From: Pararhizobium sp. IMCC3301
GTDB taxonomy: Bacteria; Pseudomonadota; Alphaproteobacteria; Rhizobiales; GCA-2746425
DNA: 64,000 nt
Direction: 5' to 3'
Assembly (NCBI RefSeq): GCF_030758315.1
Contig: NZ_CP132336.1
Span: 620,001 to 684,000, forward strand
Part shown: piece after piece, positions 39,549 to 46,205 of the stretch
Numbering within the stretch: position 1 is the stretch's first letter
How the letters are laid out: each line of letters starts with the position of its first letter
The notes under the pieces: generated by a model
The model's database searches: none
The model's input: the letters and a program-made list of their open reading frames with translations, nothing else
What the model was told of the DNA's origin: nothing
Position numbers and translations under genes: made by a program

Positions 39549-40367
39549 TCAACCGGCAGCGAGCGGCTCCGGTGAAACTCTGGCGGCACCGCGTCCGCGT
39601 TCCGCAATGATCAGTTCAATACCCGCCGCCTCCAGCATCGCGGCGGATTTGTCGTCGATCCCGTCATCAGTGATCACCTTGGTAATCCGCGACAAGGGAC
39701 ACAGGATGAGGCTCGAACGCTTCTTCAGTTTCGATGCATCGACAAGAACGACCAACTCGTCGGCCTGATTAATCAGCTTCTGCTCGGCCTGGATCAATAG
39801 TGGATCAGCCTCCATCAGACCCAGCGGACTGAGCCCCTGCGCGCCCATGAACATGCGTTTGGCGTAGAAATTACGGGTGACATCATTGTCAAACGGGCTG
39901 AGAATGATGTTCTGCTCGCGATAGATCGTTCCGCCGGACAGCGTTATGGTGTTTTTCGAATGCTTCAGCAGATGTTCAGCGATGGGAAAGGAATTGGTAA
40001 AAACCTGGCAGCGCTTCATCGCCAGCGGATGCACCATCTGGAATGTCGTGGTGCCGCCATTGATGATGATCGGGTCGCCATCGTCGCACAATTCGGCCGC
40101 CTTCACGGCGATCGCCCGCTTCTGCGCCATATTGATCGTTTCATTGACGCTGAACGGCCGACCGGCAAGACCGACGAATTGGGGCGGGCTGATGGATTCA
40201 GCACCACCGCGAACACGCCGGAGCTTCTTCTGAACGTGCAGAGTAGCAATGTCGCGGCGGATCGTTGCCTCGGAAGAATCCGTCAGTTCCACCATTTCCT
40301 GAACAGTGGCGACGGGCTTTCCCTGAATGGCGGACAGGATAATCCTGTGGCGTTCCTTCTCGTGCAT
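39549..40367 (-). CDS. rhaR: DeoR family regulator of rhamnose catabolism
   Basis: A 272-residue DeoR-type repressor/activator. The N-terminal winged helix (TVQEMVELTDSSEATIRRDIATL) is followed by the sugar-phosphate sensing domain (NGGTTTFQMVHPLA; EADPLLIQAEQKLI; VVLVDASKLKKRS). ATG at 40367 with a GGGAGGA ribosome site. It faces the rhaD gene across a control region full of phased repeats that is its likely target. Confidence 0.88.
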   Translation of the reverse strand: MHEKERHRIILSAIQGKPVATVQEMVELTDSSEATIRRDIATLHVQKKLRRVRGGAESISPPQFVGLAGRPFSVNETINMAQKRAIAVKAAELCDDGDPIIINGGTTTFQMVHPLAMKRCQVFTNSFPIAEHLLKHSKNTITLSGGTIYREQNIILSPFDNDVTRNFYAKRMFMGAQGLSPLGLMEADPLLIQAEQKLINQADELVVLVDASKLKKRSSLILCPLSRITKVITDDGIDDKSAAMLEAAGIELIIAERGRGAARVSPEPLAAG

Positions 40368-40409
40368 GGCGTCCTCCCTGCCCTGAACAATTCCACCACC
40401 TGAGCGCCT

Positions 40410-40481
40410 TGTCAATCACAAACAATCAAAACTACGCAAATATGCTAATATTTGATTGTTTGTGATTGAACTTGATTGACA
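40410..40481. promoter_or_regulatory. Divergent rha control region with phased TGATTG repeats
   Basis: A 19-base perfect inverted repeat (40412-40430 and 40451-40469; arm core CAATCACAAACAATCAAA) surrounds a 20-base centre. Inside it TGATTG recurs at exact ten-base steps: complements at 40413 and 40423, direct copies at 40453, 40463 and 40473. A TTGACA -35 box overlaps each outer edge, at 40410-40415 (leftward) and 40476-40481 (rightward). This is the expected operator for RhaR controlling both directions. Confidence 0.75.
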
Positions 40482-40546
40482 ACGGAACATTTCAGAGGCA
40501 AAACTTATCAAACAATAAACGTCACCGGACGTGTGGGAGGGAAGAC

Positions 40547-42649
40547 ATGCTCAGACAGGATAAAGGCTCGCGCCTGGAAAACCTTTGGGATGAACAACGT
40601 GCCGCAGGCATGAGCGAGCCGGAACTGTTGCTGTACCGCTCAAATCTGCTCGGCTCCGACAAGCGCGTCACCAATTATGGCGGCGGCAACACCTCCGCAA
40701 AGGTCCTGCAGAAGGATCCGCTGACAGGCGCCATGGTCGAAGTGCTGTGGGTCAAGGGATCGGGCGGTGATGTCGGCACCATCAAAATGGATGGCTTTGC
40801 AACCTTGTATATGGATAAGCTCAACGCGCTGAAGTCGATCTATCGCGGCGTCGAATTTGAAGACGAGATGGTCGGCTACCTACCCCACTGTACCTTCAAT
40901 CTGAACTCCAGAGCCGCATCCATCGACACGCCGCTTCATGCTTATGTGCCGCAGAAACATGTTGATCACATGCATCCCGATGCCATCATCGCGATTGCCG
41001 CAGCAGATAACAGCGAGGAATTGACGCGAACGATATTCGGCGACGAGATCGGTTGGCTGCCATGGAAGCGCCCGGGTTACGAGCTGGGTCTCTGGCTGGA
41101 AAAATTCTGCCTCGACAATCCAGATTCCAAGGGCGTTGTACTGGAAAGCCACGGCCTGTTTACCTGGGCCGATACGGCGCGCGAATGCTATGATCTGACC
41201 ATCGACATCATCAATCGGGCAATCGGCTGGTTCGAGCGCGAGACATCCGGCAAGCCGGTCTTCGGCGGCGAAAAATACCAGGCGCTGCCTGCCGGCAGGC
41301 GGCGCGAGATCGCCGCTGCACTGATGCCCGCGATCCGTGGCATGGTTTCAAAAGATGTGCCGATGGTCGGTCATTTCGATGATGCTGACTCTGTGCTGCA
41401 ATTTGTCTGTGCAAATGATATGGTAGCGCTCGCCGCGCTTGGCACCTCCTGTCCGGATCATTTCCTGCGCACCAAAATCCGCCCGCTTCTGGTGGATTTC
41501 GACCCGTCCCATTCTGATGTCGACAAGGCACTTGAGACGCTTGCCGGAGCAGTGGCCGACTACCGCGCCGAATATGCCGCCTATTATGAGCGCTGCAAAC
41601 ACGATGACAGCCCGGCCATGCGCGATGCCAATGCGGTCGTCTACCTCATTCCCGGTGTCGGAATGATCACCTTCGCCAAGGACAAGGCGACTGCCCGTAT
41701 TTCCGGAGAATTTTACACCAATGCCATCAATGTGATGCGCGGTGCCTCGACCGTCTCGCGCTATTGCGGTCTGCCCGAGCAGGAAGCTTTCGACATTGAA
41801 TACTGGCTGCTCGAGGAAGCAAAGCTGCAACGCATGCCGAAGTCGAAAAGCCTGGCCGGACGCATTGCCATTGTCACTGGCGGGGCTGGCGGCATCGGTT
41901 CGGCGACAGCTGAACGCCTGCTGACGGAAGGCGCCTGCGTCGTCCTTGCCGACATTGATGAAGCTGCGCTGGCAAGGACGCAGGAAAACCTTGCCGCGCG
42001 CTATTCCTTTGATGTGGTGCGCACCGTTTCGATGAATGTTACAAACGAAGACGCCGTGATTGCGTCTTATACGCAAATGGCAGTCGAATATGGCGGTGTC
42101 GATATCATCGTCTCCAATGCCGGTATTGCCTCATCGGCTGCAGTGGAAGACACTTCATTAGAGTTGTGGAACCGCAACATGTCGATCCTCTCGACCGGCT
42201 ATTTTCTGGTCGCTCGCGAAGCCTTCAAAATGCTCAAGAAGCAGGATATCGGCGGCTCGATTATTTTCATCGGATCAAAGAATGGACTGGCTGCATCGCC
42301 GGGTGCATCGGCCTATTGCACGGCAAAGGCATCGGAACTGCATCTTGCGCGCTGTCTGGCGCTGGAGGGCGGACCTCATGGCATCCGTGTCAATGTCGTC
42401 AACCCGGACGCGGTGCTGCGCGGCTCCACGATCTGGTCGGGCGACTGGCTGAAAGAACGTGCGGATGCCTATGGCAAGGACACATCCGAGTTGGAAGAAC
42501 ATTACCGCCAGCGCTCGCTACTGAAACGCTCGGTACTGCCTGAAGATATTGCCGAGGCCACGTATTTTTTCGCATCAGAATTGTCGGCGAAATCAACCGG
42601 CAACATCATAAATGTGGATGCGGGCAACATCCAGGCTTTCACGCGCTGA
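40547..42649 (+). CDS. rhaD: Bifunctional rhamnulose-1-phosphate aldolase / short-chain dehydrogenase
   Basis: A 700-residue fusion. The N-terminal ~430 residues form a class II aldolase (zinc histidines in MHPDAIIAIA-type and ESHGLFTWAD segments) that splits rhamnulose-1-phosphate to lactaldehyde and dihydroxyacetone phosphate; the C-terminal ~260 are an SDR (TGGAGGIGSATA; SNAGIASS; catalytic AYCTAKASEL) that would oxidise lactaldehyde. This two-domain RhaD is typical of rhizobia. ATG at 40547 with GGGAGG; the in-frame TTG at 40466 lies inside the operator and is rejected. Confidence 0.93.
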   Translation: MLRQDKGSRLENLWDEQRAAGMSEPELLLYRSNLLGSDKRVTNYGGGNTSAKVLQKDPLTGAMVEVLWVKGSGGDVGTIKMDGFATLYMDKLNALKSIYRGVEFEDEMVGYLPHCTFNLNSRAASIDTPLHAYVPQKHVDHMHPDAIIAIAAADNSEELTRTIFGDEIGWLPWKRPGYELGLWLEKFCLDNPDSKGVVLESHGLFTWADTARECYDLTIDIINRAIGWFERETSGKPVFGGEKYQALPAGRRREIAAALMPAIRGMVSKDVPMVGHFDDADSVLQFVCANDMVALAALGTSCPDHFLRTKIRPLLVDFDPSHSDVDKALETLAGAVADYRAEYAAYYERCKHDDSPAMRDANAVVYLIPGVGMITFAKDKATARISGEFYTNAINVMRGASTVSRYCGLPEQEAFDIEYWLLEEAKLQRMPKSKSLAGRIAIVTGGAGGIGSATAERLLTEGACVVLADIDEAALARTQENLAARYSFDVVRTVSMNVTNEDAVIASYTQMAVEYGGVDIIVSNAGIASSAAVEDTSLELWNRNMSILSTGYFLVAREAFKMLKKQDIGGSIIFIGSKNGLAASPGASAYCTAKASELHLARCLALEGGPHGIRVNVVNPDAVLRGSTIWSGDWLKERADAYGKDTSELEEHYRQRSLLKRSVLPEDIAEATYFFASELSAKSTGNIINVDAGNIQAFTR

Positions 42650-44400: not shown

Positions 44401-45111
44401 CTAGTCCTTTTTGTTCCAGGCGGAAATTTCAGTGGCACCACCATTTTTTCCCGACCACGTCAGCGGGTCATCGAGAAAGCTCTCCACCTGAATGAGCGTC
44501 TCGGGATCGAAATAGCCTTGCTTTTTGCAAACAGCCAGCACATCCCGCCAGGTAGCGAGATAGTGTAGATTGAGGCCGATCCCGGACAGGTTTTCGCGGG
44601 CTTCCGGGAAGATGTCATAGAAAAACACCACCACCGTATCCGATATTTCAGCGCCGGCCTTTCGGATCGCTTCGCAGAACTTGATCTTGCTGCCACCATC
44701 GGTGGTCAGATCCTCCACCAGCAGCACCCGCTTGCCATCAACGGAATTTCCCTCGATCTGCGCATCCCGGCCAAACCCTTTGGGCTTCTTGCGCACATAA
44801 TGCATCGGCAGGTTCAACTTCTCAGCAAGCCATGCACCGAACGGGATACCGGCGGTCTCGCCGCCAATCACCGAATCAATCTGCTCAAAGCCGATATCTT
44901 CCATCACCACACAGGCAGCGAAATCCATCAGCGTATTTCTGATACGCGGGTAGGAAATGATCTTCCTGCAATCGATATAGACCGGGCTGGCGATACCGGA
45001 GGTGAACATATAGGGCTTGTCGGTTCGGAAATGAACAGCATCAATCTCCAACAGCATTTTCGCTGTCATTTCGGAAATAAGCTTGCGGTCCGGGAATGAG
45101 CTGGAGTGCAT
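44401..45111 (-). CDS. pyrE: Orotate phosphoribosyltransferase
   Basis: Joins orotate and PRPP to make orotidine 5'-phosphate. The 236-residue protein has the PRPP loop [30 protein letters not shown] and the flexible-loop [14 protein letters not shown] lysine. It follows pyrC by 29 bases on the same strand. Depending on whether other copies exist in the genome, it serves de novo pyrimidine synthesis, salvage of imported orotate, or both. Confidence 0.94.
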
Positions 45112-45140
45112 TTTTTTATCCTTTGAGAGATTTTACCAGG

Positions 45141-46205
45141 CTAAATCTCCCCAGCCTTAGTTAGTTCGTGTCGCCAAAGCAATGCAAAGCCAGGGTCGAA
45201 AACCGTTATCGTCTCGTTTTGAACGGATATCTTTCCGGGCATCTCTACAGGGTCACTCTGTTTGATGAATTTCAACCGCTGCTCATTCGGCAAAAGGCCG
45301 TAAAAGGCCGGACCGCTCAGCGATGCAAAGGCCTCGAACTGATCCAGCGCACCATCATCTTCAAAGACATGAGCCAGGCAATTGAGGGTGTTGATGGACG
45401 TATAAATACCGGCGCAGCCGCACGCGCTTTCCTTGGCTCCATCGAAATGCGGCGCAGAATCCGTGCCGAGGAAAAAACGGGGATTGCCGGAAGTCGCTGC
45501 GGCGCGGACGGCCAGCCTGTGTGTCTCGCGCTTGGCCACGGGCAGGCAGTAATAATGCGGCTTGATCCCGCCAACCAGATAGGCGTTGCGGTTGATAATC
45601 AGATGATGCGTTGTCAGGGTCGCCGCGATGCCCTTTGGCGACGTCATCACATAGTTGACGCCTTCTTTGGTGGTGACATGTTCCATGACAATGCGCAGCG
45701 TTGGAAAGCGCTGCCGCAGCGGATCAAGCACTCGGTCAATGAATACCGCCTCGCGGTCGAATATATCAATTTCCGGATCGGTCACTTCACCATGAACCAG
45801 CAAGGGCAGATCGATTTCGCTCATACGTTCCAGAACAGGATAGATTTTTTCGATATCACGCACGCCGCTCTCTGAGTTGGTCGTTGCGCCCGCCGGATAA
45901 AGTTTGACCGCCTTGATCAGACCGCTGGCAGCACTTTGCGCGACATCCTCCGGGTCCGTTGTTTCGGTCAGATAAAGCGTCATCAACGGCTCAAAATCAT
46001 CACCCTCGGGCAACGCTGCGCGGATCTGCTCAAGATACGAAGCCGCCTGGTCTGCGGTGACCACCGGAGGCACCAGATTGGGCATGATGATGGCTCTGGC
46101 AAAATTGGCACTGGTGTGCCCGATGACCGAACGCAACATGGCGCCGTCACGCAAATGCAAATGCCAGTCATCCGGCCGGCGGATGGTAAATTGCGTGACA
46201 CTCAT
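45141..46205 (-). CDS. pyrC: Dihydroorotase (class II)
   Basis: Interconverts N-carbamoyl-L-aspartate and dihydroorotate. The 354-residue E. coli-like enzyme has the zinc ligands in HLHLRDG, the carbamylated lysine in [12 protein letters not shown], histidines in LVHGEVTD and MEHVTTKEG, and the catalytic aspartate in [13 protein letters not shown]. The start overlaps the stop of the M20 hydrolase gene by four bases. The reaction is reversible, so it fits either synthesis or breakdown. Confidence 0.95.

Follow-up and report, generated by a model that had tools for sequence, protein, structure and literature searches.

A predicted RhaR operator of mirrored TGATTG boxes between rhaR and rhaD, with a central PhaR-type palindrome in most relatives

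The gap between the divergent genes rhaR and rhaD in the stretch of DNA analyzed here (64,000 nucleotides of Pararhizobium sp. IMCC3301, hereafter called the window) carries an array of TGATTG boxes which, judged from sequence comparison, is very probably the operator at which RhaR controls the divergent rha locus. In most relatives examined, a palindrome of the type recognized by the regulator PhaR lies within this array and would add a second input; in the window's species this element appears to have decayed. Coordinates of the genes, boxes and putative promoter elements are given in Table 1.

Table 1. Features of the rhaR-rhaD region, in window coordinates; boxes and promoter elements are predictions.
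Feature	Coordinates	Strand	Basis and remarks
rhaR, DeoR/GlpR-family repressor gene, ATG at 40367	39549..40367	-	Pfam HTH_DeoR and DeoRC over cut-off
rhaR promoter -10, AATTGT with upstream TGn, 17-bp spacer	40387..40395	-	40387 invariant, 40394-40395 nearly invariant
rhaR promoter -35, TTGACA	40410..40415	-	TGTCAA on + (exact match); conserved in 14-row alignment; agrees with S. meliloti transcription start site within one base
Left outer RhaR box (predicted), TGATTG	40413..40418	-	CAATCA on + (exact match); overlaps rhaR -35; TGA core in 97% of weighted left halves, inflated by anchoring there
Left middle RhaR box (predicted), TGATTG	40423..40428	-	CAATCA on + (exact match); TGA core at -10 in 63% of weighted left halves
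Degenerate left inner box, TACGCA on +	40433..40438	-	..TCA in most of 14 aligned rows; TGA core at -20 in 34% of weighted left halves
Dyad centre; position of PhaR palindrome in relatives, palindrome absent in window, one base fewer	40439..40452	.	Alignment
Right inner RhaR box (predicted), TGATTG	40453..40458	+	Exact match; TGA core at -20 in 81% of weighted right halves
Right middle RhaR box (predicted), TGATTG	40463..40468	+	Exact match; TGA core at -10 in 96% of weighted right halves
Right outer RhaR box (predicted), TGATTG	40473..40478	+	Exact match; overlaps rhaD -35; alignment and anchored gaps
rhaD promoter -35, TTGACA	40476..40481	+	Exact match; TTGAC conserved, final base varies in relatives
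Candidate weak rhaD -10, CAAAAC, 17-bp spacer	40499..40504	+	A at 40500 nearly invariant; weak consensus across relatives
rhaD, bifunctional rhamnulose-1-phosphate aldolase/dehydrogenase gene, ATG at 40547	40547..42649	+	NF006189, 1228 bits, over cut-off

The product of rhaR has an N-terminal HTH_DeoR domain (PF08220, 50.6 bits; cut-off 21) and a C-terminal DeoRC domain (PF00455, 137.6 bits; cut-off 31.8), which bears out the assignment of the neighboring regulator to the DeoR type in the first-pass annotation of this DNA. Its top NCBIfam model is UlaR, known from Escherichia coli and its relatives, yet the score of 196.6 is under the curated cut-off of 244 and places the protein outside the UlaR equivalog; a search of solved structures with RhaR gave 0 matches at E 0.001. 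To the left of rhaR are matches to the rhamnose-transporter binding protein RhaS, a sugar ABC ATPase, L-rhamnose mutarotase and, weakly, a sugar kinase, and to the right of the array rhaD is followed by rhaI. A divergent rhaD start was present in 144 of the 157 loci examined. The rha locus of R. leguminosarum has the same gene layout as the window (PMC3870299, PMC9025865) and is under negative control by RhaR (PMC9025865). Adjoining the rha genes, window positions 44401-46205 hold frames that, by eye, resemble pyrE and pyrC (orotate phosphoribosyltransferase and dihydroorotase).

In the window, the five TGATTG elements described in the first-pass annotation, two inverted and three direct at ten-base steps within each cluster, were reproduced at their exact positions, as were the TTGACA hexamers overlapping both outer edges. 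Its ten-base phasing holds within the clusters; the 30-base step between them is atypical, with an outer-box distance of 60 versus 61 in relatives. The 19-base inverted repeat that it reported also exists and is perfect (40412-40430 with 40451-40469), but it pairs the left outer and middle boxes with the right inner and middle boxes, ten bases off the conserved dyad register. It joins non-equivalent boxes and is a by-product of the recurrence of one element. Set against the six-box dyad unit of relatives, the window has five of the six boxes and both -35 overlaps, and is without one inner box (the left, which reads TACGCA) and one central base. The left inner box is also degenerate in the aligned gap of the same-genus genome G003. 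We read the five-box arrangement of the window as a decayed six-box, mirror-symmetric dyad.

The anatomy of the array in relatives was derived from 195 RhaR loci, from which 14 identical gaps were removed to leave 181, 166 of them with a divergent rhaD start. A class-wide search, in which 4 of 385 genomes passed E 1e-80, contributed three loci. Alignment of the gaps, which had been proposed as a check on the array, showed the boxes kept in 10-bp steps across orthologues. Among the 82 gaps compared first, 80 carry an exact TGATTG outer box at either end of the array, and the remaining two (L056 and L119) read CGATTG on the right. The outer-box distance was 61 in 78 of 83 gaps, the window included; two of the five gaps not at 61 were unmeasurable in this way, their right outer box being CGATTG. 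From this set we derived a half-operator consensus, TGAT..-N4-TGATYG-N4-TGATTGACA, which is mirrored on the two sides; weighted frequencies of the TGA core at 10 and 20 bases inside the outer box are listed for each side in Table 1. We read the ancestral unit as six boxes, of which the left inner is the least conserved. Both half-operators scored above 99% of the null in 87/87 orthologues at 78% identity or more, a figure that is partly by construction because the matrix was trained on close relatives, in 59/75 at 60-78% identity and in 7/19 at 40-60%; thus, under 60% identity, 12 of 19 orthologues are without at least one half-operator. Five RhaR orthologues of one genus (L168-L172, 66-67% identity) have no adjacent divergent rhaD and neither half above the null; the central palindrome is also absent from the upstream stretch examined in these loci, and their genomes carry phaR.

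The promoter calls rest on conservation and on a published S. meliloti transcription start site, since a consensus promoter scan reported one minus-strand site inside the array and recovered neither the rhaR nor the rhaD promoter. In the 14-row alignment, the invariant position 40387 is the last base of the putative rhaR -10 element and the nearly invariant 40500 is the second base of the putative rhaD -10 element, which in the window is a poor match. The -10 columns are weakly conserved across the 151 gaps in which both outer -35 anchors, GTCAATC and GATTGAC, are present; the other 30 of the 181 gaps were left out of the anchored set. In S. meliloti, the PhaR site is given as 90 from the rhaR ATG and 77 from the transcription start site (PMC12542648, Table 3), which places this start 13 nt before the ATG. 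The outer-box TTGACA of S. meliloti Ak57 predicts a start 14 nt before the ATG, and this agreement of 13 with 14 supports the rhaR -35 assignment. Counted by eye, the PhaR site of Ak57 also starts 90 from the ATG, and its 21-mer differs from that of PMC12542648 in the last base. Because the outer boxes take in both TTGACA elements, RhaR bound along the array would lie over the -35 elements of the two promoters.

The two half-operators are held at a characteristic distance. The anchors were 65 bp apart in 123 of the 151 gaps, a count that is favored by our choice of the pair nearest 65 where a gap held several; distances of 64 and 66 add 9 loci, and 19 loci differ by more than 4, the full range being 44 to 146. 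There were 12 distinct larger changes (-21, -19, -11, -10, 10, 21, 22, 30, 31, 32, 52 and 81), and these cluster near whole helical turns, with a mean cosine of 0.78 at 10.5 bp (V-test p 7e-5; equaled in 0/20,000 random sets). These changes are partly non-independent, and a parsimony test was hence made with the 8 reconstructed changes of more than 4 bp, which gave p 0.002; the tree was midpoint-rooted, and as its root sets 97 and 87 ahead of 65, two of these events are of uncertain direction. One locus (L150, +81) is clearly out of phase and another (L221, -19) is 0.2 turn off. Spacing taken from best matches to a position weight matrix was dropped for this test, as the box repeats allow a half to shift by 10, and the exact -35 anchors were used instead.

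Two other accounts of this spacing have to be weighed. The half-arrays could be independent, that is, two RhaR operators, one per promoter, that lie together only through the divergence of the genes and form no joint complex. The width of the range of anchor distances agrees with such an arrangement, as do some loci of the phaR-less family whose left boxes seem to be placed beyond the -35 element on its outer side; the prevalence of a single distance and the clustering of the changes near whole turns, in both tests, argue against it, and we consider independent halves rather unlikely. Loci of the latter kind include L236, L246, L223 and similar ones (in the phaR-less family where tested), whose left boxes appear displaced towards the rhaR start, so that in these loci it is possibly the promoter spacer that is covered by the rhaR-side half. 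Alternatively, whole-turn changes might reflect mutation by units, such as slippage of 10-bp boxes or duplication of the palindrome, rather than selection for helical phase. Several changes measure precisely -10 or +10, a period of 10 bp gives nearly as strong a phase signal as one of 10.5 bp (0.73 against 0.78, with 0.86 at 10.25 bp), and some expanded loci have extra palindromes 20-21 or 30-32 bp apart. However, the changes of -11, -19, +21, +22, +32 and +52 are not multiples of 10, and yet at 10.5 bp they are within about 0.2 turn of a whole number, so that this explanation also appears doubtful to us. The earlier suggestion that the boxes share one face of the DNA is consequently upheld in part: changes in half-array spacing are mostly near whole turns, though 10-bp slippage could also have produced them.

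Among the loci in which the anchor distance has changed, every expanded one other than L150 has at least one palindrome inside the array. Where there are two or three (L147, L149, L176-L178, L180, L206, L210 and L215), the leftmost copy stands 35-36 bp from the left anchor and the rightmost copy within the array 35-36 bp from the other anchor; where there is one (L145 and L216), the 35-bp distance is kept on one side only. A second TGATTGAC was seen past the right anchor in L145, and an extra palindrome outside the array in L176. Seven loci are contracted; six of these come from phaR-less genomes, and L240, the remaining one, belongs to the same family. As contracted loci occur in genomes that lack phaR, the phase trend cannot be put down to PhaR alone.

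The palindrome YGCRNYGCR was found between the anchors in 110 of the 151 anchored gaps. Of these 110, 103 have the first copy centred exactly 35 bp from the left anchor, and 103 have the last copy centred at that distance from the right anchor. Within these loci, the palindrome is 12 times as dense in the array as outside it. With looser 6-mer anchors, an earlier count took in 156 of the 181 gaps, of which 114 had the palindrome and 92 had it exactly central, against a shuffle expectation of 0.5%. PhaR (AniA) binds polyhydroxybutyrate, and YGCRNYGCR matches its consensus (PMC6201568, PMC12542648). Counting by eye in S. meliloti Ak57 puts the palindrome between the two anchors, at 35 bp from either.

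It might be proposed that the palindrome is a further element of the RhaR operator rather than a PhaR site, as its fixed position in the RhaR array would allow. We regard this as very unlikely, because its sequence fits the consensus that Bradyrhizobium footprints gave for PhaR (PMC6201568), the PhaR protein of S. meliloti binds the same rhaD-rhaR gap in vitro, in a gel shift rated weak (PMC12542648), and the palindrome is missing from all 23 anchored loci of phaR-less genomes. The phaR gene was found in 50 of the 77 genomes tested. Among anchored loci, 34 of 39 in phaR-carrying genomes have the palindrome versus 0 of 23 in phaR-less genomes; among loci without anchors, 3 have it and 6 do not in phaR carriers, and 0 have it and 4 do not in phaR-less genomes, duplicate gaps having been kept in these counts. 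The 23 anchored phaR-less loci are all from one family (the phaR-less genomes seen were 24 of that family and 3 of another), and the joint absence of palindrome and gene, though strong in count, thus amounts to few events. In the published S. meliloti proteome, RhaD is recorded as 'not regulated' (PMC12542648).

The window itself departs from this pattern. Its gap has no YGCRNYGCR palindrome, the same-genus G003 has one, and its genome carries phaR (TIGR01848, 150 bits). Five anchored loci of phaR carriers are without the palindrome, the window's among them; G001 likewise has the gene without the palindrome. All four loci with an anchor distance of 64 are without it, and 96 of the 123 at 65 have it. 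The window's species thus appears to have lost the central PhaR site while keeping phaR. Among the more distant rhaR gaps, 15 of 19 have at least one PhaR-type palindrome, though 12 of the 19 miss at least one half-operator; in one locus (L211, whose RhaR homologue is 53% identical), three PhaR-type palindromes stand at exact 21-bp steps with few recognizable TGATTG boxes.

When an exact outer-pair pattern with a 46-56-base centre was searched for in the 297 genomes of the order, it was found in 22, all of them within the 72 that have a RhaR match at E 1e-60, and in 0 of the other 225; a reversed control pattern was found in 0 of the 297. A scan of the window's own genome for TGATYG-N4-TGATYG pairs, prompted by the idea that further TGATTG pairs would mark more RhaR sites, gave ten, of which three make up the array. 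Five of the other seven were inspected (those near 3304853 and 3893025 being outside the five), and each was inside a stop-to-stop frame of more than 80 codons. We hence propose no wider RhaR regulon in this genome. Finally, a chance origin of the repeats in an AT-rich gap (43.6% G+C in a window of 56.8%) has next to no probability, as at least five TGATTG copies in the 179-bp gap arose in 0/20,000 dinucleotide shuffles (mean 0.22), any 6-mer reached five copies in 29/5,000 shuffles, TGATTG does not exceed two copies per 72-base stretch elsewhere in the window, and the array is conserved across genera.

Parts of this system are already in print. The RhaR of Chloroflexus aurantiacus is, like that studied here, a DeoR-family protein with tandem sites upstream of rha genes; a 38-bp fragment with four TCGAAA sites was shifted in EMSA, and L-rhamnulose abolishes binding (PMC3870299). 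That protein differs in box sequence and belongs to a non-orthologous RhaR group, and the available text of the report describes neither a mirror array nor a PhaR palindrome. For the Rhizobiales, with the same regulator group and gene pair, the same 2013 paper predicted a RhaR motif of two imperfect direct repeats with 10-11-bp periodicity. The window array likewise has direct repeats with this period ahead of rha genes, and the idea of a periodic RhaR operator is thus not new. The portion of that paper available to us describes no six-box unit or dyad, no overlap with -35 elements, no palindrome fixed at the centre and no phasing of half-operators (PMC3870299). Genetic work in R. leguminosarum and S. 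meliloti found that RhaR negatively regulates two divergent operons, as proposed here, and its accessible sections map no operator (PMC9025865). The PhaR (AniA) site of S. meliloti is in the same intergenic region as the array, in a position that is vacant in the window itself; it is listed and gel-shifted in PMC12542648, and in the text available it is not placed within a RhaR array. What is new here is the palindrome inside the RhaR array at a fixed 35-bp geometry, a combination for which no description was found in the mainly open-access literature searched.

In the mechanism that we infer, the array would be the shared operator of a divergent locus, with rhaR and the transporter genes read one way and rhaD-rhaI the other. 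RhaR subunits would occupy the TGATTG boxes in 10-bp steps along one helix face, presumably as an oligomer, in two mirror half-arrays. Since each half is predicted to end on the -35 element of one promoter, one RhaR complex would shut both, until a rhamnose-derived metabolite released it. In most relatives examined PhaR would bind between the halves at the fixed 35-bp distance and supply a second, carbon-storage input; in the window's species, with the palindrome and one inner box decayed, the operator would answer to RhaR only. More tentatively, it is possible that the ancestral array was a composite switch, in which mirror RhaR half-arrays shared one PhaR dimer, 35 bp from each side and in helical register, so that one complex would read both rhamnose and stored polyhydroxybutyrate and lock two divergent promoters. 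Lineages with duplicated sites would then have kept one at about 35 bp from each half, the lineage that lost phaR would have lost the site and kept the phasing, and the window's species would be a natural mutant, still in possession of phaR but no longer taking its input at the array.

Rhamnose use affects competition for nodules in rhizobia (PMC9025865). If the proposed arrangement is correct, a sugar-specific repressor and a sensor of a storage polymer on one rigid operator would tie rhamnose use to the carbon reserve in these alphaproteobacteria. Effects of PhaR on rhaD could then escape notice in the absence of rhamnose, being hidden by RhaR. The expanded, contracted and PhaR-less arrays would form a natural series for the study of phasing and cooperativity.
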